Source of the DNA: Cycloclasticus sp.
GTDB taxonomy: Bacteria; Pseudomonadota; Gammaproteobacteria; Methylococcales; Cycloclasticaceae
Assembly (NCBI GenBank): GCA_040743155.1
Contig: JBFLJU010000001.1
Span: 1,795,144 to 1,859,143, forward strand
Reading direction: 5' to 3'
DNA length: 64,000 nucleotides
Shown: in pieces, positions 4,506 through 19,977 of the stretch
How positions within the stretch are numbered: the stretch's first letter is position 1
How the letters are laid out: each line of letters opens with the position of its first letter
Translations under genes and position numbers: made by a program
Notes under the pieces: model-generated
What the model saw: the letters and a program-made list of their open reading frames with translations, nothing else
What the model was told of the DNA's origin: nothing
The model's database searches: none

Positions 4506-4690
4506 TCGCGTAAAAATGAACTCAGTACTGTAAAAGCCAATTGTTTTTTAGCTCAATTGATTATCCATCACGACCGTATGAAGTATTGCCCACTTTTGTT
4601 ATATTAATTTCACAATACATGGAAGTACTGTCCGCATATATACAATTCATACTTGGGCAATAGCTTTCGGTTATTAACACTGTTATGAGC
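4506..4690 (+). repeat. ~185-bp leader repeat, copy 1
   Basis: This segment is recognisably homologous along its length to 7886-8067. Both begin with TCGCGTAAA, share a nearly identical core (TTGTTATATTAATWTCACAA then ATACATGGAAGTACTRTCCGC) and end with TTATTAACACTRTTA. Copy 1 has an inverted repeat TATTGCCCA (4584-4592) / TGGGCAATA (4654-4662). It ends 15 bases before the start of the GIY-YIG/RAMA-like gene. Its right end, CGGTTAT-N7-GTTATGA, resembles the right arm of an integron attC site, but I could not find a matching left arm. Function unknown. Confidence 0.7.
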
Positions 4691-4704: not shown

Positions 4705-5322
4705 ATGGAAAATGATTTAAACACAGGAATCGTTTATGTTTTAACCAACCCTGCAATGCCTGGGGTTGTCAAAATTGGAAAAACATCTCGTGGTTCAGTA
4801 GATGCACGATTAAGAGAACTTTACTCCACAGGAGTCCCCGTTCCTTTTGAATGCGCTTTTGCCGGTCGAGTTTCGGACGAGTCAAAAGTTGAGAGAGCAT
4901 TTCATTTGGCTTTTGGCCCATATCGCCTAAACCCAAAAAGGGAGTTTTTTACAATAGAGCCTGAACAAGCAATTGCATTGTTGGCATTAATGATTATCGA
5001 AGACGTAACACCAACACTTCAAGCAGAAGCCGAAAAGGTAGATATAGAAGCAAAATCAGGAGCCGACAAGCTAAAAGCTCGACGACCTAATCAGAATTTC
5101 TTTGAAATGGGCATTCCAGAGGGTGGAATCCTACGGTTTTCACAAGGGGAGGAAAGCTGTACCGTAATAAATGGTCGGAAGGTTTGCTATAACGGTGAAG
5201 AAATTTCATTAACTGCTCTTACCAAAAAGTTACTTGATACCGACCGCCCTCTTCAGCCTTCACCACATTGGTTTTTCAATGGACGGTGCCTAAATGATAT
5301 TTACAATGACACGTACCAATAG
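4705..5322 (+). CDS. GIY-YIG (T5orf172/MUG113-type) protein with RAMA-like C-terminal domain
   Basis: A 205-residue cytoplasmic protein. Residues 8-90 match the T5orf172/MUG113 branch of the GIY-YIG nuclease fold: VYVLTN then VKIGKT, an Arg in DARLREL, and a Glu in KVERAFH. Residues about 110-203 resemble a RAMA/DUF4357-type module: G-x-L-R-F, a C-x-V-x-NG-x-x-x-YNGEE stretch, and the final W-F-F-NGR-x-L-x-D-I-Y. RAMA modules are usually found with DNA modification and restriction proteins, so a DNA-processing or defence role is plausible but inferred. The gene starts 15 bases after a repeat that is also found before the gene at 8074. It stands alone with no methyltransferase nearby. Confidence 0.72.
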   Translation: MENDLNTGIVYVLTNPAMPGVVKIGKTSRGSVDARLRELYSTGVPVPFECAFAGRVSDESKVERAFHLAFGPYRLNPKREFFTIEPEQAIALLALMIIEDVTPTLQAEAEKVDIEAKSGADKLKARRPNQNFFEMGIPEGGILRFSQGEESCTVINGRKVCYNGEEISLTALTKKLLDTDRPLQPSPHWFFNGRCLNDIYNDTYQ

Positions 5323-7011: not shown

Positions 7012-7193
7012 AGGTTATGCGGTTAATTGTCGTTAATAAAGTTAAGGAGCCGCGCATTCTACAGCAACTCAATTATTATGCGGGGTGATGAGGTCTATCG
7101 CCTATTGGCAAGCGAACTGATTGTTTATGCCGCTACGAGGTATCTCTTCAGATTAAAAAAAAGTATTTATTTTCAACACGCTATAGAATCAAA

Positions 7194-7270
7194 GGCTAGC
7201 GCCAGCTTAAATACACTAGGCAGCTTCAAGCGTGCTTTGCACAAGGCCAACGCTTAGCAAGACGTTAGCC
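7194..7270 (+). repeat. attC-like imperfect palindrome (degenerate)
   Basis: The outer arms GGCTAGCG-CCAGCTTAA (7194-7210) and CTTAGCAAGACGTTAGCC (7253-7270) are nearly complementary, and an inner GTGC-TTT-GCAC hairpin closes the structure. The right end GTTAGCC resembles the integron R' core (GTTRRRY), with a CGCTTAG box six bases before it. The site ends seven bases before the membrane-protein gene at 7278. It is less convincing than the two sites at 9107 and 11509. Confidence 0.45.
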
Positions 7271-7277
7271 GAGAAGC

Positions 7278-7841
7278 ATGGAGACTGATTTGGAACACAG
7301 CTTTGTTGAGCAAGGAACACTGAAACGACCCGGCCCTATTGGCAGGTTGGTACGGCTGCTCTTTGCTGCGGTGTGCGGGTGGTTTTTAGTGTGGCTGATT
7401 TTAGCTGGCCCCGCACAGCTTGCTGCTCAATTTCCATATATTATCGAGCTGTGGCTTTGGGCGTTGCTAGCGTTGTATTTATTCCCTTATGTGATCAACA
7501 TTGGGTTTGGTAGGGACTGGGGCCGACGGCCTCAGCTAATAGTTATTGCCTGTGGTTGTGTAGCGTCAATTCTTAGCTATACGATTGATAATAACGTCTG
7601 GGGCGCACCACTGGCTTGGTTTATTATTGCGTGGCTTTTCTACGTTTATACGCACTTGGCAATCTCATTTTTCTTATCGGCCATTCTTGCTACTCCAGGT
7701 TGCGAAATGCGGGCGTTACCACACCTTTTAGCAATCATGCGTAATCGCCCTCCGCTTGAACACCATTGCCCAGTAGGGCCGCTAAGCCGCATCGACGCTT
7801 GGGAATCAAAAAAACGATCAGGCAGCAAGAATGAACGCTAA
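7278..7841 (+). CDS. Unknown integral membrane protein
   Basis: 187 residues with no motif I recognise. Three to four hydrophobic segments are visible: about 24-49 (LFAAVCGWFLVWLILAG), 52-75 (ELWLWALLALYLFPYVI), 85-102 (LIVIACGCVASILSYT) and 110-138 (PLAWFIIAWLFYVYTH then FFLSAIL). The C-terminal ~45 residues are soluble and basic (MRNRPPLEHHCPVG ... KKRSGSKNER). The start ATG is preceded by AGAAGC. It lies between an attC-like palindrome and the second leader repeat, so it may be a cassette gene. Function unknown. Confidence 0.6.
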   Translation: METDLEHSFVEQGTLKRPGPIGRLVRLLFAAVCGWFLVWLILAGPAQLAAQFPYIIELWLWALLALYLFPYVINIGFGRDWGRRPQLIVIACGCVASILSYTIDNNVWGAPLAWFIIAWLFYVYTHLAISFFLSAILATPGCEMRALPHLLAIMRNRPPLEHHCPVGPLSRIDAWESKKRSGSKNER

Positions 7842-7885
7842 GAATTGGCTTATTAAGCGACTGTTGTTTTACGTGCCCCGTAGAG

Positions 7886-8067
7886 TCGCGTAAATGCAAA
7901 CTCAGGATTGTAAACACTGATTCTTTGTAACCAACTGGTTACCTATCACAACCATATAAAAGACTATCCACATTTGTTATATTAATATCACAATACATGG
8001 AAGTACTATCCGCCTACATACAGTTAATACGCGGACAATAGCTCCCGCTTATTAACACTATTAGGGC
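7886..8067 (+). repeat. ~185-bp leader repeat, copy 2
   Basis: This is the diverged second copy of the element at 4506-4690. The most conserved part is 7971-8012 (TTGTTATATTAATATCACAA followed by ATACATGGAAGTACTATCCGC). It has the direct pair ACTATCCAC (7963-7971) and ACTATCCGC (8005-8013), with GCGGACAATA (8031-8040) inverted. The final ATTAGGGC lies seven bases before the ATG at 8074. A GTAACC-aac-TGGTTAC palindrome (7927-7942) occurs only in this copy. The repeat ends with attC-like right-arm spacing but has no clear left arm. Confidence 0.7.
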
Positions 8068-8073
8068 TGAAAA

Positions 8074-9105
8074 ATGGACGAGATTTCACATCTTCCTGAA
8101 GAATTTGAGTTCAGCCATTGGTATAGCTTTTTTTTGCACGATCAACTGGTAGAAACACTTAAATCTGCTGAAGAAGCAGAAGTGTTCAATTCAACAATTC
8201 AGTTCAAAGATGAATCTCACGGCAAGGCAGTTGAGGGCTTATCTGGCGAGGATTTCATTTTGTGGCTTGAGGGAAACGGATATAAAGAAGAAGTTCTGGT
8301 TATCTACTACAAACAGTTGTGCGCAGCCTTGTTGTCGGATTTTCTGCATTTCATATATGAGTCTTTAAAATGCAGTCGAAAAGGGAAGCTTACCGTTGCT
8401 TATGCTCTATTGAGAAAGCCTTTAAAAGAAAACTTATTCTATCTGGAGTGGCTGTTAGCACGTCCAGACGACTTCCTAGAAAGGTTTGAAAAAGAAAATC
8501 CTCAAAGGTTTAAACTACCTTTTCCAGAGGAACCGACGGAGTCTGAGCACATAGCGATTATTAGAGAGGCCTTAGAGAATACAAAAACCGGGAAATGGAT
8601 GGAGCCAGAGTTTATTCACGAACTACGTTTCAAGAAAAATTCTCTAATCAGCCTAGAACCGCTTTGGCAAAAAGCAAATCATCTTGTGACTACCTTCAAG
8701 CACATGGAAACAGAAGAGTGCAATCTCAATTTTTTGTTTTCTGACTCTGATGCACATTACTCACAATGGTTAGGGTTCTATCAATTTGTTCCCATACTTC
8801 TTTTCCATGCGGTCGAGGTCATCGAGGCACTTCTTAAGAGCTTTGCAAGAAGGGAAATTGAGGAAGCGGACATCATATCCCTGAGAACAGTCGCGGGAAT
8901 GATGTTATACCTCGAAAATCCTCCATGGGAATCCGATATGGCTGAGGCTATTTCTGATTTCGGTGCAACACTCCAGGAGGCGGGGTTGAACTGCCCAAAA
9001 TGCGGAGCAGAATTTCAGTTTCACCAAAGGAATATATCCTTGTTTTACGAGAGTGGATCTCTGGAATGCGAGCAAGGATGTGGTGAAGTATGTCTGCATC
9101 AGTAA
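8074..9105 (+). CDS. Unknown 343-residue protein with C-terminal Cys-rich (zinc-ribbon-like) tail
   Basis: A soluble, largely helical protein. Residues about 80-150 (YYKQLCAALLSDFLHFIYES ... TVAYALLRKPLKENLFYLEWLL) resemble the helical core of DUF5677-like accessory-genome proteins. This resemblance is from memory of the pattern and is weak. The C-terminus contains C307-x2-C310 and C332, C336, C340, a spacing compatible with zinc binding. The stop codon lies one base before an attC site, the classical position of a cassette gene. Upstream is leader repeat copy 2. No membrane segment or signal peptide is seen. Function unknown. Confidence 0.65.
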   Translation: MDEISHLPEEFEFSHWYSFFLHDQLVETLKSAEEAEVFNSTIQFKDESHGKAVEGLSGEDFILWLEGNGYKEEVLVIYYKQLCAALLSDFLHFIYESLKCSRKGKLTVAYALLRKPLKENLFYLEWLLARPDDFLERFEKENPQRFKLPFPEEPTESEHIAIIREALENTKTGKWMEPEFIHELRFKKNSLISLEPLWQKANHLVTTFKHMETEECNLNFLFSDSDAHYSQWLGFYQFVPILLFHAVEVIEALLKSFARREIEEADIISLRTVAGMMLYLENPPWESDMAEAISDFGATLQEAGLNCPKCGAEFQFHQRNISLFYESGSLECEQGCGEVCLHQ

Positions 9106-9106
9106 G

Positions 9107-9187
9107 CCCTAACAAGGCCATAAACGCGGACGCATTTTTCGTTCGCTACGCTCACTACAAATGCGCCGGTTATAGCTGGCGTTACAC
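9107..9187 (+). repeat. Integron attC recombination site
   Basis: An 81-base imperfect palindrome. The left arm CCCTAACAAGGCCATAAACG (9107-9126), continuing through CGGACGCATTT, pairs with the right arm AAATGCGCCGGTTATAGC (9159-9176) and its extension TGGCGTTACAC. The TTCGTTCGCTACGCTCAC loop is typical of attC sites in marine gammaproteobacterial integrons. The R' core is GTTACAC (9181-9187) and the R'' core CCCTAAC. It begins right after the stop codon of the 343-aa gene, as attC sites do. No integrase gene lies in the window. Confidence 0.8.
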
Positions 9188-9231
9188 GTCAATTACACTA
9201 TGAAGTATCAACCAAAATATGGACATCACAG

Positions 9232-11502
9232 ATGAATAGGCTTTCCCAAAAAGAAAGGGTCGTATCACTAGCGATAGACCTCCTTCTACTTTTACTAATA
9301 TGCGCCTTAGCGTTTGGTAACCTTTACCCACCTGTTGGTGATAGCGGTTTTTGGTTTTATACAGCTTTGTTAAGCGTTCTTGTTGGTTCAAAGATAGTCA
9401 CACCATTCTACGTTAAACCTGTTGATGCAATTTCATACGCAGTTCCTGCATTTGTATCATTAATGCTTGTAAACAGTTGGGGGACATGGTCTATAGAAAC
9501 AAAGGTTTCTTTTGTTGCGGTTTCGGCATTGTCCGCAACAGTTCTAGCTTCTGCCTTATTGGCTATTATTTTGAATAATTGGGGAAATGAAAAGCTACAA
9601 GAAATATCAAATAAAATAAGAATAGTTCTTGAAATATTGGCAAAGCCTCAGGTTATTTATACCCCAATAATAATTTTTGCAATGTATGCCTATCACATAG
9701 GAAAGCCAAACGAATTAATATTAATATCTATTGCTATAATACTTACCGTTGCTATGTCGGCGGGTGACGCAGTAGTTAAAACATTCAACAGAATTCGAAA
9801 AACAACCAAAATTGGACAGCGCGTATCTAACTTTGCAGAAATTGCTGCTTATCAGCAGCCAAATATTATTCTGCTTCGCCAAGTCAAAGACAACAATTTG
9901 CCGCTTAAAAAGATCGTTTACGTCAAAGATAAGCATTCGAACTCAAAATTGGCGCTAACACTTGATTTGGTTGGCCGAGATAATGGTGTTTTAATCCGGG
10001 CAGTTGAAATTACAAACCTTTCGTCTAGTCGATACAGGGAGCTTGAATCAATTGTTTCAAATGATTCTGCCGTTTTAATCGATGATGACTACCTCCAAGA
10101 AATTTGTACTTCAGAAAATATAGACTTAGCACAAAAAGATAACGTTATCGGGATTGTTGCACCCGACTCTTCAATAGAAAGGCTGTTTTTTGAAGTCGTT
10201 GATAACTCTAATATTGAGGAGGGTCGACTTGTTACAGTCATCGTTCAAAATCAAAAGGTTCTGTATCAAATAGTTGGAGGCTTGACCAAGGAAGAGGTTG
10301 TTCACCAAAAGAATACTTATGGTTATTTACGTGCTCAAGCTCAACAGATAGGAATTTGGAATGAAGACCACAGAAAGTTTACTCAATTTAGTTGGCTGCC
10401 TAACATTAATGAACCAGTATACCTTGAAGCCCAAGAAAACCATGTTATTGAACCTGATGCAATAGGGCACTTCCCTAATAGTAATTACCAAGTAAAAATC
10501 GGGAATATTAATCATTTAGTAACTCATAATACCGCGATCCTTGGTATTCTCGGTGTGGGAAAGTCTATGCTCGCCATTGAGTTGCTAGAGAGAATGATGT
10601 CAGAAGGCATAAAAGTCGTGTGCCTAGATTTAACGGATCAATATTCATCAGAGCTATCTGATTACTATGATACACCTCACGAAGAGGCATGCCTTGCAAA
10701 GCTTAGAACAGCTACAGAAGATGATCGGGACGTGTGGCAGGAAAATCCAGAGCAAGGCGGTAGTTTACCTAATTTAAAGAATGCATTTTTTGATGATCTA
10801 AATGAATTTATTCACAATACAGATGGGCGTCTCCTAAAAATTTATAACCCAGCGGAGTTTGTTGCTACACGCCAAGAGCGTGCGCCAGGCAGCTTTCAAG
10901 CCGCAGGTCAGTGGCAGCGCGGCGCTGCTCTATTTAGTGTTACGCCTGTAGAGATCACAAAAATTGTTTCGGAGACCGTTCTTGATATTTTGTCTTCCGA
11001 AATGTCAGACAATGCTAGGGTTTGTCTGGTTTATGAAGAGGCACATTCACTGGTTCCTGAATGGAATTCTGTTGTCGCAGAAGGTGACAAACACGCTACT
11101 AGCGGCACAGCTAGAGCTATTTTGCAAGGTCGGAAATTTGGTTTAGGCTGCCTTCTTATTACCCAAAGAACGGCTAACGTGACAAAAACCATTCTCAATC
11201 AATGCAACACCATATTTGCCATGCGCACGTTTGATGATACTGGTAAGGATTTTCTAGGAAACTATATCGGTCGAGATTATGCTCAATCGTTATCTTCAGT
11301 AAAAGAACGTCATGCAGTATTTTTTGGCAGAGGTTCTAGTTGTGAAAATCCAGTTTTGATAAAAGTGAACGATAGGGATGACTTCCGAAGAATATTCAGA
11401 GAAGCACATCGCCTCCCTGTATTTCCTCATCCAGAAGCAGCTATTCCCGTAGTGGAAGAACAACAGACAGCCACTGAGTTTGATAATGACATTCCGTTCT
11501 GA
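9232..11502 (+). CDS. Membrane-anchored HerA/DUF87-type ATPase
   Basis: 756 residues. About six hydrophobic segments occupy residues 10-180 (near 10-28, 40-55, 66-81, 92-115, 140-155 and 160-176). A linker and a beta-rich domain (about 205-430) follow, which may correspond to the HAS-barrel of HerA. The RecA-like motor has Walker A GILGVGKS at 438-445 and Walker B VCLVYEEA at about 597-604. Further on, TSGTARAILQGRKFG and LITQRT match sensor and arginine-finger regions of HerA/FtsK ATPases, and a C-terminal NPVLIKVND follows. HerA ATPases pump DNA or partner with nucleases; several antiphage systems use them. The N-terminal membrane domain is unusual for HerA. No NurA- or Sir2-type partner is adjacent. 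The gene is bracketed by attC sites, so it is a cassette. The function is inferred to be defence-related at best. Confidence 0.78.
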   Translation: MNRLSQKERVVSLAIDLLLLLLICALAFGNLYPPVGDSGFWFYTALLSVLVGSKIVTPFYVKPVDAISYAVPAFVSLMLVNSWGTWSIETKVSFVAVSALSATVLASALLAIILNNWGNEKLQEISNKIRIVLEILAKPQVIYTPIIIFAMYAYHIGKPNELILISIAIILTVAMSAGDAVVKTFNRIRKTTKIGQRVSNFAEIAAYQQPNIILLRQVKDNNLPLKKIVYVKDKHSNSKLALTLDLVGRDNGVLIRAVEITNLSSSRYRELESIVSNDSAVLIDDDYLQEICTSENIDLAQKDNVIGIVAPDSSIERLFFEVVDNSNIEEGRLVTVIVQNQKVLYQIVGGLTKEEVVHQKNTYGYLRAQAQQIGIWNEDHRKFTQFSWLPNINEPVYLEAQENHVIEPDAIGHFPNSNYQVKIGNINHLVTHNTAILGILGVGKSMLAIELLERMMSEGIKVVCLDLTDQYSSELSDYYDTPHEEACLAKLRTATEDDRDVWQENPEQGGSLPNLKNAFFDDLNEFIHNTDGRLLKIYNPAEFVATRQERAPGSFQAAGQWQRGAALFSVTPVEITKIVSETVLDILSSEMSDNARVCLVYEEAHSLVPEWNSVVAEGDKHATSGTARAILQGRKFGLGCLLITQRTANVTKTILNQCNTIFAMRTFDDTGKDFLGNYIGRDYAQSLSSVKERHAVFFGRGSSCENPVLIKVNDRDDFRRIFREAHRLPVFPHPEAAIPVVEEQQTATEFDNDIPF

Positions 11503-11508
11503 AGCAAC

Positions 11509-11605
11509 GTGTAACAAGCCAAAGCACTCGGACTTGATAAAGCCGTCACTTTTTTGTTCTAAAAAATCCGCCAACTTCACCAAGCCGGTGTGTGAGGCGT
11601 TATGC
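11509..11605 (+). repeat. Integron attC-like recombination site
   Basis: A 97-base imperfect palindrome starting seven bases after the HerA stop codon. The left arm TAACAAGCCAAAGCACTCGG, extended by ACTTGATAAAG (11512-11542), pairs with the right arm CTTCACCAAGCC extended by GGTGTGTGAGGCGTTA (11575-11602). The R' core is GTTATGC (11599-11605) and the R'' core GTGTAAC (11509-11515). Together with 9107-9187 it would delimit one cassette of about 2.4 kb. It overlaps by one base the stop of the minus-strand gene at 11605. Confidence 0.72.
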
Positions 11606-11955
11606 TACCGACTACATGCTGCATCCATCATTGTTTTGTTACCCGATGACCTTAACTTCCTGTATTCAGTCACCCAAAAATCACAAGTTTCCCTCTTAAC
11701 TCTTTGAGTGTTTTTTTTGTTTGCTGATTCAATGACGGCAACTCTCTTTCTTTCTCGATTCTGAATTTGCATTTCTTTTATTCGTTTAGCAGACTCAACT
11801 TTCCCCTTTTCAGCAGATTTTTGCATCATTTGAGCAACGACTCTTAACTCATAATTCGTCCACACTTTTCCTACAACTAATAGCATCCCATTGCCTAAAA
11901 AAATAGCTATTGCTAGCGTAATGCATAGCGCAACGTAATTAATTCCCTGTTTCAT
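11605..11955 (-). CDS. Small membrane-anchored protein of unknown function
   Basis: 116 residues. A single N-terminal membrane segment (about 7-30, YVALCITLAIAIFLGNGMLLVV) is followed by a highly charged Lys/Arg/Glu-rich helical region (about 33-90) likely to form a coiled coil, and a C-terminal CDFWVTEYRKLRSSGNK ... AACSR with two cysteines. A good ribosome-binding site, AAGGAAG, precedes the ATG, which supports a real gene. It lies antisense to the preceding cassette. I do not recognise the family. Confidence 0.62.
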   Translation of the reverse strand: MKQGINYVALCITLAIAIFLGNGMLLVVGKVWTNYELRVVAQMMQKSAEKGKVESAKRIKEMQIQNRERKRVAVIESANKKNTQRVKRETCDFWVTEYRKLRSSGNKTMMDAACSR

Positions 11956-12230
11956 TTTTCTTCCTTGTTAAAAATTTAGTTTGGTACGCTATACAAGTAT
12001 AACTATTATTAATAAATTAATTTTTGGGTTAGCCCTCATGGGGGGGTGAAATCAAATTTAAAGGGTGAAACATGTTTCGGAATGTAGTGGCTAGTTAAAG
12101 AGGACACTACCCTTTGATTCGCAAGAAAGTGGATAGCGAATATTGTAGCCAACCGAACCCAGCACCACTTTTTACGAGTCGCGTAGAATCGCGTAAAAGT
12201 CGCGTGATTTTTAAGGGGGAAGGCTTGAAA
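11956..12230. other. Intergenic stretch with tandem TCGCGT repeats next to tRNA-Met
   Basis: No convincing gene. An ATTCGC / GCGAAT inverted repeat occurs near 12117-12141. Three TCGCGT units lie at 12179, 12189 and 12200, 10-11 bases apart, within 30 bases of the 3' end of tRNA-Met. Such short direct repeats by a tRNA 3' end resemble integrase arm-binding sites of a former attachment site, but no integrase is present. Single copies of the same word (CGTAGARTCGCGTAAA and TCGCGTAAA) start or precede the two 185-bp repeats. Confidence 0.45.
12177..12207. repeat. Triple TCGCGT direct repeat (possible integration scar)
   Basis: AGTCGCGTAGA, ATCGCGTAAA and AGTCGCGTGA follow one another with a 10-11 base period. 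The array is 24 bases from the tRNA-Met CCA end. The core word also occurs at 7886 and 4506. Confidence 0.5.
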
Positions 12231-12307
12231 TGGTGGTCATGGGTGGACTTGAACCACCGACCCCAGCATTATGAATGCTGTGCTCTAACCAGCTGAGCTA
12301 CATGACC
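12231..12307 (-). tRNA. tRNA-Met (CAT), elongator type
   Basis: On the minus strand the acceptor GGTCATG (5') pairs with CATGACC (3'), followed by A and an encoded CCA. The D-loop TAGCTCAGCTGGTTAGAGCA, the anticodon stem-loop CAGCATTCATAATGCTG with CAT, and the T-arm GGTGGTTCAAGTCCACC are all present. A paired first acceptor base and overall likeness to MetT indicate the elongator rather than the initiator. It borders the accessory region. Confidence 0.97.
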
Positions 12308-13635: not shown

Positions 13636-15942
13636 TCACACTGCTTCCTCAGACTCTTGTTTGCTCCACTGCCGTAGCTGCTCAGCGGCGCTCACCATAT
13701 TGGAAAGTGCCAACTCTACTTCTTTCCAGCCACGTGTTTTTAAGCCGCAATCTGGATTAACCCATAAGTTTTCTAATGGTATCCGTTTAGCCGCCAATTT
13801 GATCAACGCAGTCATCTGTTCAACACTCGGTACATTCGGTGAATGAATATCATAAACACCCGGGCCTATTTCGTTGGGGTAGCTAAAGCTTTCAAACACA
13901 TCCAGTAATTTCATGTCCGAACGGGATGTTTCAATGGTAATAACATCGGCATCCATTGCCGCCACGGCCTGCATAATGTCATTGAAGTTGGAATAGCACA
14001 TATGGGTGTGAATTTGGGTCTTGTTCTGCACCCCTGAGGTGGTTAAACAAAAAGCCGCTATCGCCCATGTTAAATAGTTATCCCACTCGCTCTTCCTCAA
14101 CGGTAGTCCTTCGCGCAGAGCCGCTTCATCAATTTGAATGATTTTTATACCGGCTTGCTCAAGATCTAGCACTTCGTCTCTGATAGCGAAGGCGATTTGT
14201 CGGCAGGTTAACGCACGCTCTTGATCATCTCGTACAAAAGACCAGTTTAAGATCGTCACCGGCCCGGTCAACATGCCTTTCATGGGTTTATTCGTTAATG
14301 ATTGCGCGTAACTGGCCCAACTCACGGTCATGGGTTGCGGCCGTGATACATCACCATAAATAATCGGCGGCTTAACACAACGAGAACCATATGATTGAAC
14401 CCAGCCATATTGACTAAAAACAAAGCCGTTTAGTTGCTCGCCAAAGTATTCCACCATATCGTTTCTTTCCGCTTCACCGTGAACTAGCACATCAATACCC
14501 AAGGCTTCTTGCTTCGCAATATCGCTAGCTATCTCTTGTTGCATTTGCTGGGTGTACGCCTCGGTGCTTATTTCCCCCGCTTTATAGCGCCGCCTACTCG
14601 TTCTAATACCTGCGGTTTGGGGGAAAGAACCAATGGTTGTTGTTGGGAATAATGGCAGGTTTAATTCTTTTTGTTGTAATGGACGACGCGCTGCAAAGCC
14701 GAGTGGCCGCTGTAAGCTAACAGAAGCCTCTGCTGTTAACCGTTGCTGTACCTGTTCGTTATGTACGAGATTTGATTTTTTCCTAGACTCGGCGGCTAGA
14801 CGGTTCTGACTGAAAGCCTCTTGTTGAGTGACGCCTGGGTCTTTAACCGCTTGTTTTAGCAGATTGATTTCCGTTAGTTTTTCAAGCGCGAAGGCCAACC
14901 ATTGTTGAATATCCGCCGCTAACTTTTGCTCCTGCTTAAGGCTAACCGGCACGTGTAATAAGGAACACGAGGGAGCTAACCAAACCGTTGCTGAGGTACG
15001 CTCAATTACTGATTTAATCAGCGCCAAACGATCATCTAAATCACTTTTCCATATGTTTCGCCCATCAATGATGCCTAATGACAACACCTTGTACTGAGGC
15101 AACCAGTCCAACACTTTATGCAGTTGTTCTGGTGCTCTAAGCAAATCAATATGCAGCCCAGCAACGGGTAGCTCGCAAGCCAGCCTTAAGTTTTCAGATA
15201 AGTCACCGAAATAGCTGGTCAGTAACAACTTTAAATCACCGCGCTGTATTTTGTTGTATGCCCTCTCAAAAGCAGTTTTCCATTCAATAGGTAAGTCTAA
15301 TACCAATATTGGCTCATCAACTTGCACCCACTCTACGCCTAAATCTGACAAGCGGTTTAAGATGTCCTCATAGGTCGCCAGTAGGCCCTCTAATAAATCT
15401 AGTTTATTAAAATTATCGCCCTTCACCTGCCCTAACCAAAGATAGCTAAGTGGGCCTAAAATAACGGGTTTGACAGAATGACCTTGCGTTAAGGCTTCTT
15501 CAACCTCATCAAAAAGCTTATCGCTAGAGAGTTGAAAATACTGATGTTGCGTAAACTCTGGCACGATGTAATGGTAATTCGTATCAAACCATTTGGTCAT
15601 TTCGCAGGCGCTAACGCCTTCCCCAGTGGCAGAACGCCCACGCGCCATACGAAAATACGTTTCAAGGCTAACCTTTTGCTCATTATGGTTAAAACGCTCT
15701 GGGATGCAGCCAAGCATGACACTGGTGTCTAACACTTGGTCATACATTGAGAAATCTCCTACTGGGATTAAGTCTAAACCAGATTCTGACTGTGCTTGCC
15801 AATGTTTCGCGCGCAGTATCTCAGCGTCTTCTAACAACGCTTCTTCAGTGATGCCGCCTTTCCAAAAAGCTTCTAGGGAATGTTTTAGTTCTCGGTTTTC
15901 ACCGATTCTTGGGAAACCCAAATTGTGTGTTTTGATCATCAT
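13636..15942 (-). CDS. metE: MetE, cobalamin-independent methionine synthase
   Basis: 768 residues from the ATG at 15940-15942, which has AAGAGAG upstream. E. coli MetE has 753. The N-terminal folate-binding barrel begins HNLGFPRIGENREL. The C-terminal catalytic barrel carries PLFPTTTIGSFPQT and the zinc ligands in HTHMCYSNF (His, Cys), TIETSRSD (Glu) and NPDCGLKTRGW (Cys). It transfers a methyl group from 5-methyl-THF-Glu3 to homocysteine without B12. A longer frame reaches a GTG at 16035, but that would overlap the MetR operator. It is divergent from metR with a MetR site between, so activation by MetR is expected. Confidence 0.97.
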   Translation of the reverse strand: MMIKTHNLGFPRIGENRELKHSLEAFWKGGITEEALLEDAEILRAKHWQAQSESGLDLIPVGDFSMYDQVLDTSVMLGCIPERFNHNEQKVSLETYFRMARGRSATGEGVSACEMTKWFDTNYHYIVPEFTQHQYFQLSSDKLFDEVEEALTQGHSVKPVILGPLSYLWLGQVKGDNFNKLDLLEGLLATYEDILNRLSDLGVEWVQVDEPILVLDLPIEWKTAFERAYNKIQRGDLKLLLTSYFGDLSENLRLACELPVAGLHIDLLRAPEQLHKVLDWLPQYKVLSLGIIDGRNIWKSDLDDRLALIKSVIERTSATVWLAPSCSLLHVPVSLKQEQKLAADIQQWLAFALEKLTEINLLKQAVKDPGVTQQEAFSQNRLAAESRKKSNLVHNEQVQQRLTAEASVSLQRPLGFAARRPLQQKELNLPLFPTTTIGSFPQTAGIRTSRRRYKAGEISTEAYTQQMQQEIASDIAKQEALGIDVLVHGEAERNDMVEYFGEQLNGFVFSQYGWVQSYGSRCVKPPIIYGDVSRPQPMTVSWASYAQSLTNKPMKGMLTGPVTILNWSFVRDDQERALTCRQIAFAIRDEVLDLEQAGIKIIQIDEAALREGLPLRKSEWDNYLTWAIAAFCLTTSGVQNKTQIHTHMCYSNFNDIMQAVAAMDADVITIETSRSDMKLLDVFESFSYPNEIGPGVYDIHSPNVPSVEQMTALIKLAAKRIPLENLWVNPDCGLKTRGWKEVELALSNMVSAAEQLRQWSKQESEEAV

Positions 15943-15990
15943 CGTGCTCTCTTGATTTAAGTTGCGGAGAGTATCTTGCAAGTATAGAAT

Positions 15991-16034
15991 TGAATCAATC
16001 TCATAATTTTCACAATTTACCTGAATCAAATTCA
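15991..16034. promoter_or_regulatory. MetR binding sites in the metE-metR intergenic region
   Basis: TGAATCAAATTCA at 16022-16034 exactly fits the MetR consensus TGAA-N5-TTCA, just before the metR start codon. A second, one-mismatch site TGAATCAATCTCA lies at 15991-16003, closer to metE. Two sites between divergent metE and metR match the arrangement in enteric bacteria, where MetR with homocysteine activates metE and represses metR. Confidence 0.82.
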
Positions 16035-16036
16035 CT

Positions 16037-16933
16037 ATGTTTTTAGAAATTCGTCACCTAAGGACCATCAATGTTATCGCCCAAAGCAAAAGCCTTAACC
16101 AAGCCGCTCAACAACTCCACCTCACGCCATCGGCGCTGTCACATCAAATTAAAACCATTGAGACTTATTTTGAAACCGCTATTTTCTTTCGCCAACATAA
16201 ACCCTTACGCCTAACCGATGCAGGGCAACGCCTATTACGCTTGGCACAAAAAACATTGCCCTTGATTGAAGAAACTGAGTACGAATTAGAGCAAATTTCA
16301 GCGGGCAAAGTAGGACGGCTGTTCATCACCATTGAGTGTCACGCCTGTTTTGAGTGGTTACTACCCACCTTAGAAACCTACCGTCAACAATGGCCCGATA
16401 TCACCATTGATATTAAACTTGGCATGAGCTTTAACCCCTTGCCAGCGCTGACCCGTGGCGAAATTGATCTCGTTATAAGCACCGACCCGGTGGACAAACC
16501 AGGCATTGAATTTTTACCCTTATTTCCATATCAAGCGATGTTGGTTATTAATAAGCAACATGCCTTAAAAGATAAGCCTTTTATTTCCCCTAGTGATCTA
16601 GCCGATCAAACCCTCATCACCTACCCCGTTGAACGTAGTCGCTTGGATATTTTTAAGCATTACTTAGAACCCGCCAATGTAGAACCGGCCCATATTCGGC
16701 AGGTTGAGCTGACGACCATGATCTTGCAATTAATTGCTATTGACCAAGGTGTTGCTGCACTTCCTGATTGGGTTCTTGAAACGTCAAGCAATGCTCAATC
16801 ATTGATCAGCAAACCGTTGAGCGCCAATGGTATGCACGGTGTTTTACACGCGGCCTGCCGTACAGCCGATAGCCAAATTCCTTACATCAGCGCTTTTATT
16901 GACTTGGCTAGGCAATTTAAAGCCCCCAAATAA
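16037..16933 (+). CDS. metR: MetR, LysR-family activator of methionine genes
   Basis: 298 residues. The N-terminal winged helix-turn-helix (MFLEIRHLRTINVIAQ then SLNQAAQQLHLTPSALSHQI) is typical LysR and specifically MetR-like. Residues about 90-295 form the periplasmic-binding-fold effector domain, which in MetR senses homocysteine. It is divergent from metE with MetR-type sites overlapping its own start region, which suggests autoregulation. Length matches MetR (about 300). Confidence 0.93.
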   Translation: MFLEIRHLRTINVIAQSKSLNQAAQQLHLTPSALSHQIKTIETYFETAIFFRQHKPLRLTDAGQRLLRLAQKTLPLIEETEYELEQISAGKVGRLFITIECHACFEWLLPTLETYRQQWPDITIDIKLGMSFNPLPALTRGEIDLVISTDPVDKPGIEFLPLFPYQAMLVINKQHALKDKPFISPSDLADQTLITYPVERSRLDIFKHYLEPANVEPAHIRQVELTTMILQLIAIDQGVAALPDWVLETSSNAQSLISKPLSANGMHGVLHAACRTADSQIPYISAFIDLARQFKAPK

Positions 16934-17196: not shown

Positions 17197-19977
17197 ATGA
17201 GCTTAGCTGCTACCAGCCCTGCCACCGAACACAGCACCACCATGGTCATTCGCCGCAATGGCAAAGCCACCCAGTTTGATAGTAATAAAATTTATATCGC
17301 CATCAGTAAAGCTTTTTTAGCGGTTGAAGGCGAACACAGCCAGCAATCCAGCCATATTCACGACATTGCCACGCAATTAACGAAGCAAATTCAACAAGCA
17401 ACGTTTAGAAATTTATCCGTCAACGACACCATCCATATCGAGCAAATTCAAGACCAAGTTGAACTCGCCCTAATGCGAGCCGACCACCACAAAGTGGCAC
17501 GTGCTTATGTTCTATACCGTGAAAAACGCTCCAATGAACGCTCCGAACAAGAGCAAGACCAACAAGCGTCACCAGCAATCCAGATAAAAGCTACCGACGG
17601 CAGTCTAAGCCCCTATAACAAACAGCAATTAGTGGCCTTGATAGATGAATGCGCAGCTGGGCTTGAAGATATTTCAAGCAGCGCGGTGTTAGAGGCTATT
17701 CAAAAAAATCTATTTGATGAAATTCCGCAGCATGCTTTTGAGCAAGCGATAGTCATGGGTGCAAGAGGCTTGATCGACCAACAGCCTGACTACAGCCGCT
17801 TAGCCGCGCGTTTGCTTTTAAATAACGCCAGAACTGAGGCGCTCAATTTTACCCAGCAACATAATGCCGCTGTTTTACCATCAGAAATGGCCGCTCTTTA
17901 CCCTGAGTATTTCGTTAATTACATTAAAAAAGCCATTTCACTAGAGCTGGTCGACGAAGAGCTAGGCCGTTTTGATCTACAAAAACTGGCCAGCGCAATA
18001 CAGTCAGATCAAGATGCTAACTTTAGCTACCTTGGCCTACAAACCTTGTACGACCGCTACTTCATTCATCATGACGATATTCGTTTTGAGCTACCCCAAG
18101 CCTTTTTTATGCGCGTAGCCATGGGCTTGGCGATTAACGAAGTGGAACGTGAAAGCAAGGCCATTGAGTTCTACACATTACTGTCATCTTTCGACTTTAT
18201 GAGTTCCACCCCAACCTTGTTTAACTCTGGAACTCCTAGGCCACAACTTTCAAGCTGTTACTTAACCACGCTGGGTGATGATTTGGGCGATATTTATTCT
18301 GCCCTTAAAGACAACGCACTACTGTCAAAATACGCCGGTGGTTTAGGTAATGACTGGACGCCTGTCAGAGGTTTAGGCGCCGCAATTAAAGGCACCAACG
18401 GAAAATCACAAGGGGTTATTCCTTTCTTAAAAGTTGCTAATGACACCGCTGTGGCGGTAAACCAAGGCGGCAAACGCAAAGGCGCTGTGTGTGCTTACTT
18501 AGAAACTTGGCATATTGATATTGAACACTTCTTGGAACTGCGCAAAAACACCGGTGATGAACGCCGCCGCACCCACGATATGAACACCGCCAACTGGATT
18601 CCCGATTTATTTATGCAACGGGTTATTGAAGAAGCCGATTGGACGCTCTTTTCACCCGAAGAAGTGCCGCACTTACATGACTTAACTGGCAAGGAATTTG
18701 AAGCAGCCTACCGAGTCTGTGAAGAAAAATCAGAAAAAGGTGAGATCAAGCTGCATAAAACCATCAGGGCAGTCGAGTTATGGCGAAAAATGCTCGGCAT
18801 GTTATTTGAAACAGGCCACCCGTGGATCACCTTCAAAGACCCTTGTAACATTCGCTACACCAACCAACATGTTGGGGTTGTGCACAGCTCAAACCTTTGC
18901 ACAGAAATAACCCTACACACCAATGAAAACGAAATTGCCGTGTGTAACCTTGGATCTATCAACCTGCCTGCGCATATTAAAAATGGCCAACTGGATAAAG
19001 ACAGTCTAGAAAAAACCATCAATACTGCCATGCGGATGCTCGATAATGTGATTGATTACAATTTTTACAGCGTTCCGCAAGCGCGTAATTCCAACTTAAA
19101 ACACCGTCCGGTGGGCCTTGGTATTATGGGTTTTCATGACTGCTTGCAACAACTAAACATCGCTTATGCCAGCGAGCAGGCGGTTGAATTTGCCGATACC
19201 TCAATGGAGCTGATCAGCTACCTTGCGATAAAAGCGTCGTGCGAATTAGCCAAAGAACGCGGTGCATACCCAACGTTCCAAGGCTCTTTATGGAGCCAAG
19301 GCATTTTACCGATTGACTCATTGCAAACACTCGCCGATATCCGTGGCGAATATTTAAACGTAGACCAAAGCCAAACACTTGATTGGGATAGCTTGCGCCA
19401 GCAAATCATTCAAAGCGGACTGCGTAACAGTAATTGCCTAGCGATAGCGCCTACCGCCACTATTTCTAATATTTGCGGCATTTCTCAGTCTATCGAACCC
19501 ACTTATCAAAACATGTACGTTAAATCGAACTTGTCTGGCGAATTTGTGGTGATTAATAACCAGTTGGTTAATGACTTGAAAAAACAAGGACTGTGGGATG
19601 AGGTGATGATTAACGACCTTAAATACTACGAAGGTTCAATTCAACAAATTGAACGTGTGCCAGACGAGCTAAAGACTCTCTATGCCACCGCGTTTGAAAT
19701 TGACTCGCGTTGGTTAGTTGAAGCCGCTAGCCGTCGCCAAAAATGGCTAGACCAATCACAAAGCCTCAATTTGTACATGGCTGAAACATCAGGCCAAAAG
19801 CTAGACAGCCTCTACAAACTGGCTTGGGCGCGCGGCTTAAAGTGCACTTATTATCTACGTTCTATGGGCGCAACACATGTAGAGCAAACCTTAACGCCAA
19901 GCAGCAATGATGCAACAGAAATTGTTGAGGCCAGTGTTTGCTCCATCCTAGACCCCGATTGCGATGCTTGCCAATAA
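17197..19977 (+). CDS. nrdA: NrdA, class Ia ribonucleotide reductase large subunit
   Basis: 926 residues, longer than enteric NrdA (about 760). Two ATP-cone domains appear at the N-terminus (about 14-110, starting VIRRNGKATQFDSNKI, and about 125-215). The catalytic barrel carries the SSCYL and NLCTEI cysteines, the NSNCLAIAPTATIS loop and a C-terminal redox tail CSILDPDCDACQ. It reduces ribonucleoside diphosphates using the tyrosyl radical supplied by NrdB. The gene lies behind a cobalamin riboswitch and is followed by nrdB after 32 bases. Double ATP-cones also occur in Pseudomonas NrdA. Confidence 0.97.
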   Translation: MSLAATSPATEHSTTMVIRRNGKATQFDSNKIYIAISKAFLAVEGEHSQQSSHIHDIATQLTKQIQQATFRNLSVNDTIHIEQIQDQVELALMRADHHKVARAYVLYREKRSNERSEQEQDQQASPAIQIKATDGSLSPYNKQQLVALIDECAAGLEDISSSAVLEAIQKNLFDEIPQHAFEQAIVMGARGLIDQQPDYSRLAARLLLNNARTEALNFTQQHNAAVLPSEMAALYPEYFVNYIKKAISLELVDEELGRFDLQKLASAIQSDQDANFSYLGLQTLYDRYFIHHDDIRFELPQAFFMRVAMGLAINEVERESKAIEFYTLLSSFDFMSSTPTLFNSGTPRPQLSSCYLTTLGDDLGDIYSALKDNALLSKYAGGLGNDWTPVRGLGAAIKGTNGKSQGVIPFLKVANDTAVAVNQGGKRKGAVCAYLETWHIDIEHFLELRKNTGDERRRTHDMNTANWIPDLFMQRVIEEADWTLFSPEEVPHLHDLTGKEFEAAYRVCEEKSEKGEIKLHKTIRAVELWRKMLGMLFETGHPWITFKDPCNIRYTNQHVGVVHSSNLCTEITLHTNENEIAVCNLGSINLPAHIKNGQLDKDSLEKTINTAMRMLDNVIDYNFYSVPQARNSNLKHRPVGLGIMGFHDCLQQLNIAYASEQAVEFADTSMELISYLAIKASCELAKERGAYPTFQGSLWSQGILPIDSLQTLADIRGEYLNVDQSQTLDWDSLRQQIIQSGLRNSNCLAIAPTATISNICGISQSIEPTYQNMYVKSNLSGEFVVINNQLVNDLKKQGLWDEVMINDLKYYEGSIQQIERVPDELKTLYATAFEIDSRWLVEAASRRQKWLDQSQSLNLYMAETSGQKLDSLYKLAWARGLKCTYYLRSMGATHVEQTLTPSSNDATEIVEASVCSILDPDCDACQ

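Follow-up and report, generated by a model that had tools for sequence, protein, structure and literature searches.

The window, a 64-kb stretch of the complete Cycloclasticus sp. genome (2,563,313 bp), holds an attI-led array of integron cassettes that ends beside a tRNA gene and ychF (Table 1). A cassette with a 343-aa ORF is followed by a cassette whose only gene, in a single copy in the genome, codes for a membrane-anchored HerA-type ATPase of 756 aa. An earlier, sequence-only reading of this DNA had placed attC sites on both sides of the gene and proposed a single cassette of about 2.4 kb with a possible stand-alone defence role. Here, we report the evidence on the cassette, on the predicted motor and its homologues, and on a C-terminal tip that resembles the docking tip of single-stranded DNA-binding protein (SSB).

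Table 1. Features of the cassette array (positions are those of the window)
Feature	Position	Strand	Basis
attI copy heading the array, no integrase gene adjoining	7975..8060	+	~82-bp element match to congeners
Upstream cassette, ORF 8074-9105 (343 aa)	8061..9181	+	5' end TTAGGGCT complements its own attC start AGCCCTAA
attC of upstream cassette	9107..9187	+	matrix score 34.3, rank 1 of window; covariance model E=0.0079
HerA cassette, 2418 bp, crossover to crossover	9182..11599	+	junctions kept in L028 (both ends), L027 and L029 (5' end)
Six-codon leader ORF (MDITDE*), overlaps HerA start codon	9219..9239	+	same frame and place in L027 and L028
Membrane-anchored HerA-type ATPase, 756 aa	9232..11502	+	profile, alignment and structure evidence
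Predicted membrane domain, aa 6-194, about six transmembrane helices	9247..9813	+	AlphaFold helices; hydropathy
Predicted extra beta-rich domain, aa 198-300	9823..10131	+	outside solved-HerA matches; aligned rows span 299-725
Predicted HAS-barrel and RecA-like HerA core, aa 301-720	10132..11391	+	Z 26.8, rmsd 3.9, 342 aligned, HerA 8xau
Walker A, GILGVGKS, aa 438-445	10543..10566	+	G438, G441, G443 and K444 invariant in 34 homologues
Walker B, CLVYEEAH, aa 598-605	11023..11046	+	E602, E603 and H605 invariant in 34 homologues
Predicted arginine finger R634 and sensor Q645 (QGRKFGLGCLLITQR)	11125..11169	+	both invariant in 34 homologues
Predicted disordered linker, aa 726-747	11407..11472	+	no secondary structure after aa 725; pLDDT blocks 57, 45, 45
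SSB-Ct-like tip TEFDNDIPF, aa 748-756	11473..11499	+	SSB of the genome ends DFDDDIPF
attC of HerA cassette, 3' end of gene	11509..11605	+	matrix score 32.8, rank 2; same site after L028 homologue
Conserved 3' array end with ORF 11605-11955, beside tRNA and ychF	11600..11955	-	same place in L117, L118 and L123

Both sites at 9107-9187 and 11509-11605 are attC, as first proposed, and the HerA gene is a true integron cassette. Briefly, attC sites were scored with a weight matrix in two parts combined with inner-arm pairing. The 26 attC sites used for training excluded the tested ones and came from congener arrays, from the integrase-linked array of the genome itself and from one other locus in it. 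On both strands of the window the two sites rank first and second, above all shuffles: the next score is 22.0, the best over 20 order-1 Markov versions of the window is 23.5, and the leave-one-out scores of the training sites are 20.6 to 47.9. The trained matrix took the place of a simple scanner for AAC/GTT palindromes, which did not tell attC sites from chance matches (best shuffle 15.8). An Infernal covariance model built from 14 of the 26 sites, with five pairs, gave one match in the window, 9107-9175, and missed 11509-11605, a site with a long variable loop that lies outside the five pairs. An Rfam gathering search of the window returned no attC-like family. When the DNA of both sites was folded, the z values were modest (-1.1 to -1.4) and the non-site 7180-7270 was about equally ordinary; folding energy is therefore not evidence either way.

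The 5' end of the HerA cassette, G|TTACACG (9181), perfectly complements the start of its own attC, CGTGTAAC (R'' core), and GTTACAC at 9181 pairs with GTGTAAC at 11509, as in the circular cassette form; the upstream cassette shows the same relation between its 5' end (8061) and its attC start (9105). Since each cassette's 5' end complements its own attC start, the HerA cassette runs from 9182 to 11599, in agreement with the single cassette first proposed, and its junctions are conserved in other genomes. Homologues in three other marine gammaproteobacteria, namely Amphritea (L028, 88% identity), an Oleibacter MAG (L027, 85%) and Marinomonas (L029, 76%) share the 5' junction G|TTACACG(T/C)CA, and the DNA before this junction is unrelated. 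The same attC stands at the 3' end of the Amphritea homologue, and a different attC precedes the Oleibacter one. The Amphritea copy is part of a Mu-like prophage with genes for Mu transposase, GemA, Mor and Mu portal, in which it separates Mor from the late genes. Beside the Marinomonas copy is a fused nucleotidyltransferase-HEPN gene (L029 2797-3771), a toxin-antitoxin-like pair in one protein. A sigma-70 promoter search of 7800-12300 found none that stands out over shuffles. The leader ORF that overlaps the HerA start codon is kept in L027 and L028 (MDVIDE*), with a purine-rich stretch in its place in L029, and it may serve translational coupling.

By profile, alignment and model, the protein has a HerA-type motor core in which the catalytic residues and the arginine finger are intact. 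Its profile matches are Pfam DUF87 (6.5e-8) and PADLOC HerA (1.6e-22), in line with the motor type originally assigned. The AlphaFold model (mean pLDDT 82.5, pTM 0.66) arranges the chain as helices 6-194, a beta-rich part 198-423, a RecA-like core that extends to about residue 712, a final helix as far as 725, and then a disordered tail. The expectation of about six membrane helices before the motor fits both this model and the hydropathy scan, which has four strong segments and two weaker ones matching AlphaFold helices. In the structure search with residues 305-716, solved HerA 8xau scores Z 26.8, and VirB4, TrwB and FtsK score Z 17-20. The HerA/FtsK clade is defined by an arginine finger upstream of strand 4 and a sensor Gln at the strand end (PMC10853773), and both are found here together with Walker A, Walker B, the HAS barrel and the RecA-like core.

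No SIR2, NurA or DUF4297 partner was found beside the gene (ORFs 8074-9105, 7278-7841 and 11605-11955 were profile-searched). The lack of a nuclease or Sir2 partner, already pointed out from the DNA, is general in the family of the cassette protein. In a distant relative (L025) the gene after the homologue looks by eye like one for a DUF4365-type protein, and some family members may therefore have a partner. The hypothesis of a single-gene partner was dropped; once restriction-modification (RM) genes are set aside, no neighbour family is present at more than 5 of 80 loci.

The homologues occur in many phyla. By BLAST, RM-type genes (restriction-modification genes and an AAA/protease pair) account for 34 of the 389 genes that lie within 3 kb of a homologue. 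The figure falls to 11 of 282 genes at a distance of 3-6 kb and to 2 of 308 at 6-10 kb; by the test used, only 19 of the 80 loci have an RM gene. Near genes match 400 PADLOC families and far ones eight, a count inflated by redundant models. The nearest Pfam families are ResIII, Methylase_S, SWI2_SNF2 and N6_Mtase, with housekeeping families far away, and the commonest kinds nearby are restriction, methylase and recombinase. At several loci the HerA homologue sits between hsdS and hsdM; annotated plasmid relatives are found beside AbiE and reverse transcriptase genes and within a type I RM operon. This neighbourhood is a property of the family, not of the window itself. Homologues that lie among RM genes within 3 kb, in an association that fades by 6-10 kb, argue for a defence role, which for the family appears well supported by association. 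A pair of genes for an AAA ATPase and a subtilisin-like protease is found near a homologue at two loci (L036 628-3948, and L041).

The sequence-only reading expected homologues to recur in integrons or defence islands and named a conserved housekeeping operon as the opposing outcome. The first expectation stands for the RM neighbourhoods and for a four-member marine clade of cassettes; outside this clade the homologues are not cassettes and are mostly in or near RM operons or other accessory regions. Among the 80 homologous loci, no attC signs were found near the gene beyond the marine clade, a third match, at L047, falling within coding sequence and at null level (5 of 900 windows). No housekeeping operon emerged, and such a role is rejected on the neighbourhoods and on the sporadic distribution of the family (6 of 369 genomes of the class). 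IMG/VR viral contigs and a collection of phage records contained no relatives of the protein.

What is new here is that a membrane-bound HerA motor ends, behind a disordered linker, in an SSB-type docking tip. It was missing from the sequence-only reading, as were the attI copy and the distant integrase gene described below. As in SSB (PMC10164576), acidic residues followed by hydrophobic-Pro-Phe stand at the extreme C-terminus after a disordered linker; in contrast to SSB, the tip belongs to a motor in which no SSB domain was found and is linked to a membrane domain. The tip is present in 18 of 75 full homologues by a strict pattern and in 23 of 76 rows by a looser one, and in 0 of 670 neighbour proteins of the homologues. 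Over all loci fetched, 3,319 distinct ORFs are 100 aa or longer, a set enriched in SSBs since SSB loci had been fetched; 43 of them have the motif, and each of the 43 is an SSB or a member of the cassette protein's family, with no third kind of protein carrying it. With about 70% of the homologues lacking it, the tip cannot be indispensable across the family; on the family tree it needs at least eight changes on well-supported branches, so it was gained or lost repeatedly.

The tip also follows the SSB of its host. Where the SSB of the same genome could be read, tip and SSB agree on Leu or non-Leu at the -3 residue in 21 of 21 comparisons, with Leu in both in seven (Bacteroidota, Balneolota) and non-Leu in both in 14 (Fisher p=9e-6, a value uncorrected for relatedness; one clade supplies five of the seven Leu cases, and one or two genomes give more than one SSB). 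The Leu cases L037 and L042 are separate lineages; L037 clusters with proteobacterial and planctomycete relatives, yet its tip carries the Leu form of its host. RecG binding of the SSB C-terminus (SSB-Ct) requires the terminal Phe and Pro, and other SSB-interacting proteins have similar specificity (PMC10164576). RecJ, ExoI and RecQ are encoded in the host genome, which makes recruitment of host enzymes possible, not proven.

The nearest solved relatives are the SIR2-HerA and DUF4297-HerA complexes (8wiv, 8wld, 8xau, 9c1m, 8ziq, 8j4u), which share the HerA core (Z 19-27) and the defence context; the cassette protein differs in having no adjoining SIR2 or DUF4297 and in adding the N-terminal membrane domain and the SSB-like tail. 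Against the NCBIfam anti-phage HerA models it scores 48 and 47 bits, versus cut-offs of 800 and 850. The repair motor HerA-NurA (4d2i, 9x1m) has the same core fold, whereas the cassette protein has a membrane anchor and no NurA was found beside its gene. FtsK, VirB4 and TrwB belong to the same motor superfamily and are membrane-associated, but the core of the cassette protein is clearly nearer to HerA, and no transfer or division operon accompanies it. Defence-associated genes are likewise carried as integron cassettes (Darracq et al.; Kieffer et al. 2025), as reviewed in PMC12409362, where such cassettes are called "streamlined" in size; the HerA cassette, in contrast, is large at 2.4 kb. HerA is absent from the text of that review, and in the open-access literature we found no description of HerA with an SSB tail, of HerA in integrons or of HerA cassettes, which is weak evidence of novelty.

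The HerA defence systems known so far rely on a partner enzyme of their own. Tentatively, and at somewhat short of an even chance, we favor the reading that this cassette is a one-gene anti-invader module: a membrane motor that would recruit SSB-interacting nucleases and helicases of the host, with no dedicated partner. The HerA-type subunits would assemble into a ring at the inner membrane, engage invading DNA during its entry or replication at this site, and use ATP to pump it. Through their free tails they would dock SSB-binding host proteins, of which ExoI, RecJ, RecQ, RecG and PriA are normal examples, and thereby bring them to the DNA, so that the motor would borrow host nucleases and helicases in place of an encoded SIR2, NurA or DUF4297 partner. 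It is because of the identity of the tip and its matching to the host that we infer the recruitment of nucleases. More doubtful is the wider proposal that a family of membrane-anchored HerA motors mimics the host SSB tip to conscript repair nucleases and helicases at the membrane, with different lineages retuning the mimic to the SSB of each host. If true, SSB-Ct mimicry would explain how a motor without a nuclease could defend the cell, one residue change could test it, and the SSB interaction hub would be a resource exploited by defence.

The same tip and neighbourhood data are also consistent with a defence motor in which the tail, instead of recruiting nucleases, serves for targeting or sensing: it might place the ring at replication forks through DnaG, PriA or the clamp loader, be released once phage factors have occupied the SSB-binding proteins, or fold back on the motor as an inhibitor. 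Many non-nuclease partners bind SSB-Ct (PMC10164576, PMC5872125); such a motor, however, would need some other effector to destroy the invader, and we consider this reading unlikely, at perhaps one chance in a few. With the N-terminal helices conserved and a nuclease absent, the protein might alternatively act as a membrane-damage effector, in which ATP powers a movement of the membrane domain that depolarises the cell and leads to abortive infection, with a purely regulatory tail. This leaves the match of the tail to the host SSB tip unexplained, and the motor retains the arginine finger and the sensor of DNA translocases; it seems improbable. We regard as quite improbable a motor working with an unlinked nuclease encoded elsewhere, like HerA-NurA, and bearing an incidental tail: the close solved HerA structures with partners are indeed SIR2, DUF4297 or NurA complexes, but apart from RM genes no neighbour family exceeds 5 of the 80 loci, the array holds no such partner, and the tip is specific to SSB and the family of the cassette protein. 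A motor of DNA transfer or segregation without a defence role, similar to FtsK, VirB4 or TrwB, to which the membrane anchoring and the structural matches might point, is very improbable given the clearly closer match to HerA, the RM rather than transfer genes as neighbours and the sporadic distribution in the class.

Apart from the HerA gene, the array bears on how integrons are organized in this genus. In five congeners the ~82-bp attI element lies 80-90 bp from intI in divergent orientation, and well-aligned copies of the genus end in ..A(A/T)(C/T)ACTG|TTA (ACACTG|TTA or a near variant). The crossover base of the copy heading the array is A; it is G in the other copies. A second copy lies at 4597-4685 of the window; directly behind it is a GIY-YIG (T5orf172) gene, 4705-5322, after which no attC was recognised. 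A third copy in the genome (G000:C1:1131116-1131185) is followed by an attC. Beside the window array intI is absent, the sole complete intI of the genome (2462100-2463044; 427 bits versus a cut-off of 265 in the profile search) being about 660 kb away; with a complete intI elsewhere in the genome, the array could therefore be served in trans. The remnant of a second integron integrase, with a stop codon, is found at G000:C1:1166440-1166673. In congeners the same tRNA/ychF locus holds an attI-led array, with eight attC sites in one of them, and dispersed attI copies without adjoining intI occur in congener loci L117, L118, L123, L124 and L148-L174, several of them heading cassette arrays. These dispersed copies may mark integron platforms on which a single integrase acts in trans, or they may be what is left of integrons that have lost intI. 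A Shewanella prophage provides one precedent for attI heading an integrase-less array (PMC9892861), and cassettes with partial attI sites are known from mobile integrons (PMC12901181); the present locus adds integrase-less, attI-led cassette arrays at several places within a genome. The ORF of the upstream cassette has no significant match in Pfam, PADLOC, NCBIfam or PHROG; its product has a zinc-ribbon-like end, and relatives of 30% identity are on Vibrio and Pontibacter plasmids. The genome's integrase-linked array (L010) contains one cassette twice, at 15912-16494 and 18356-18940, near-identical over about 590 bp.
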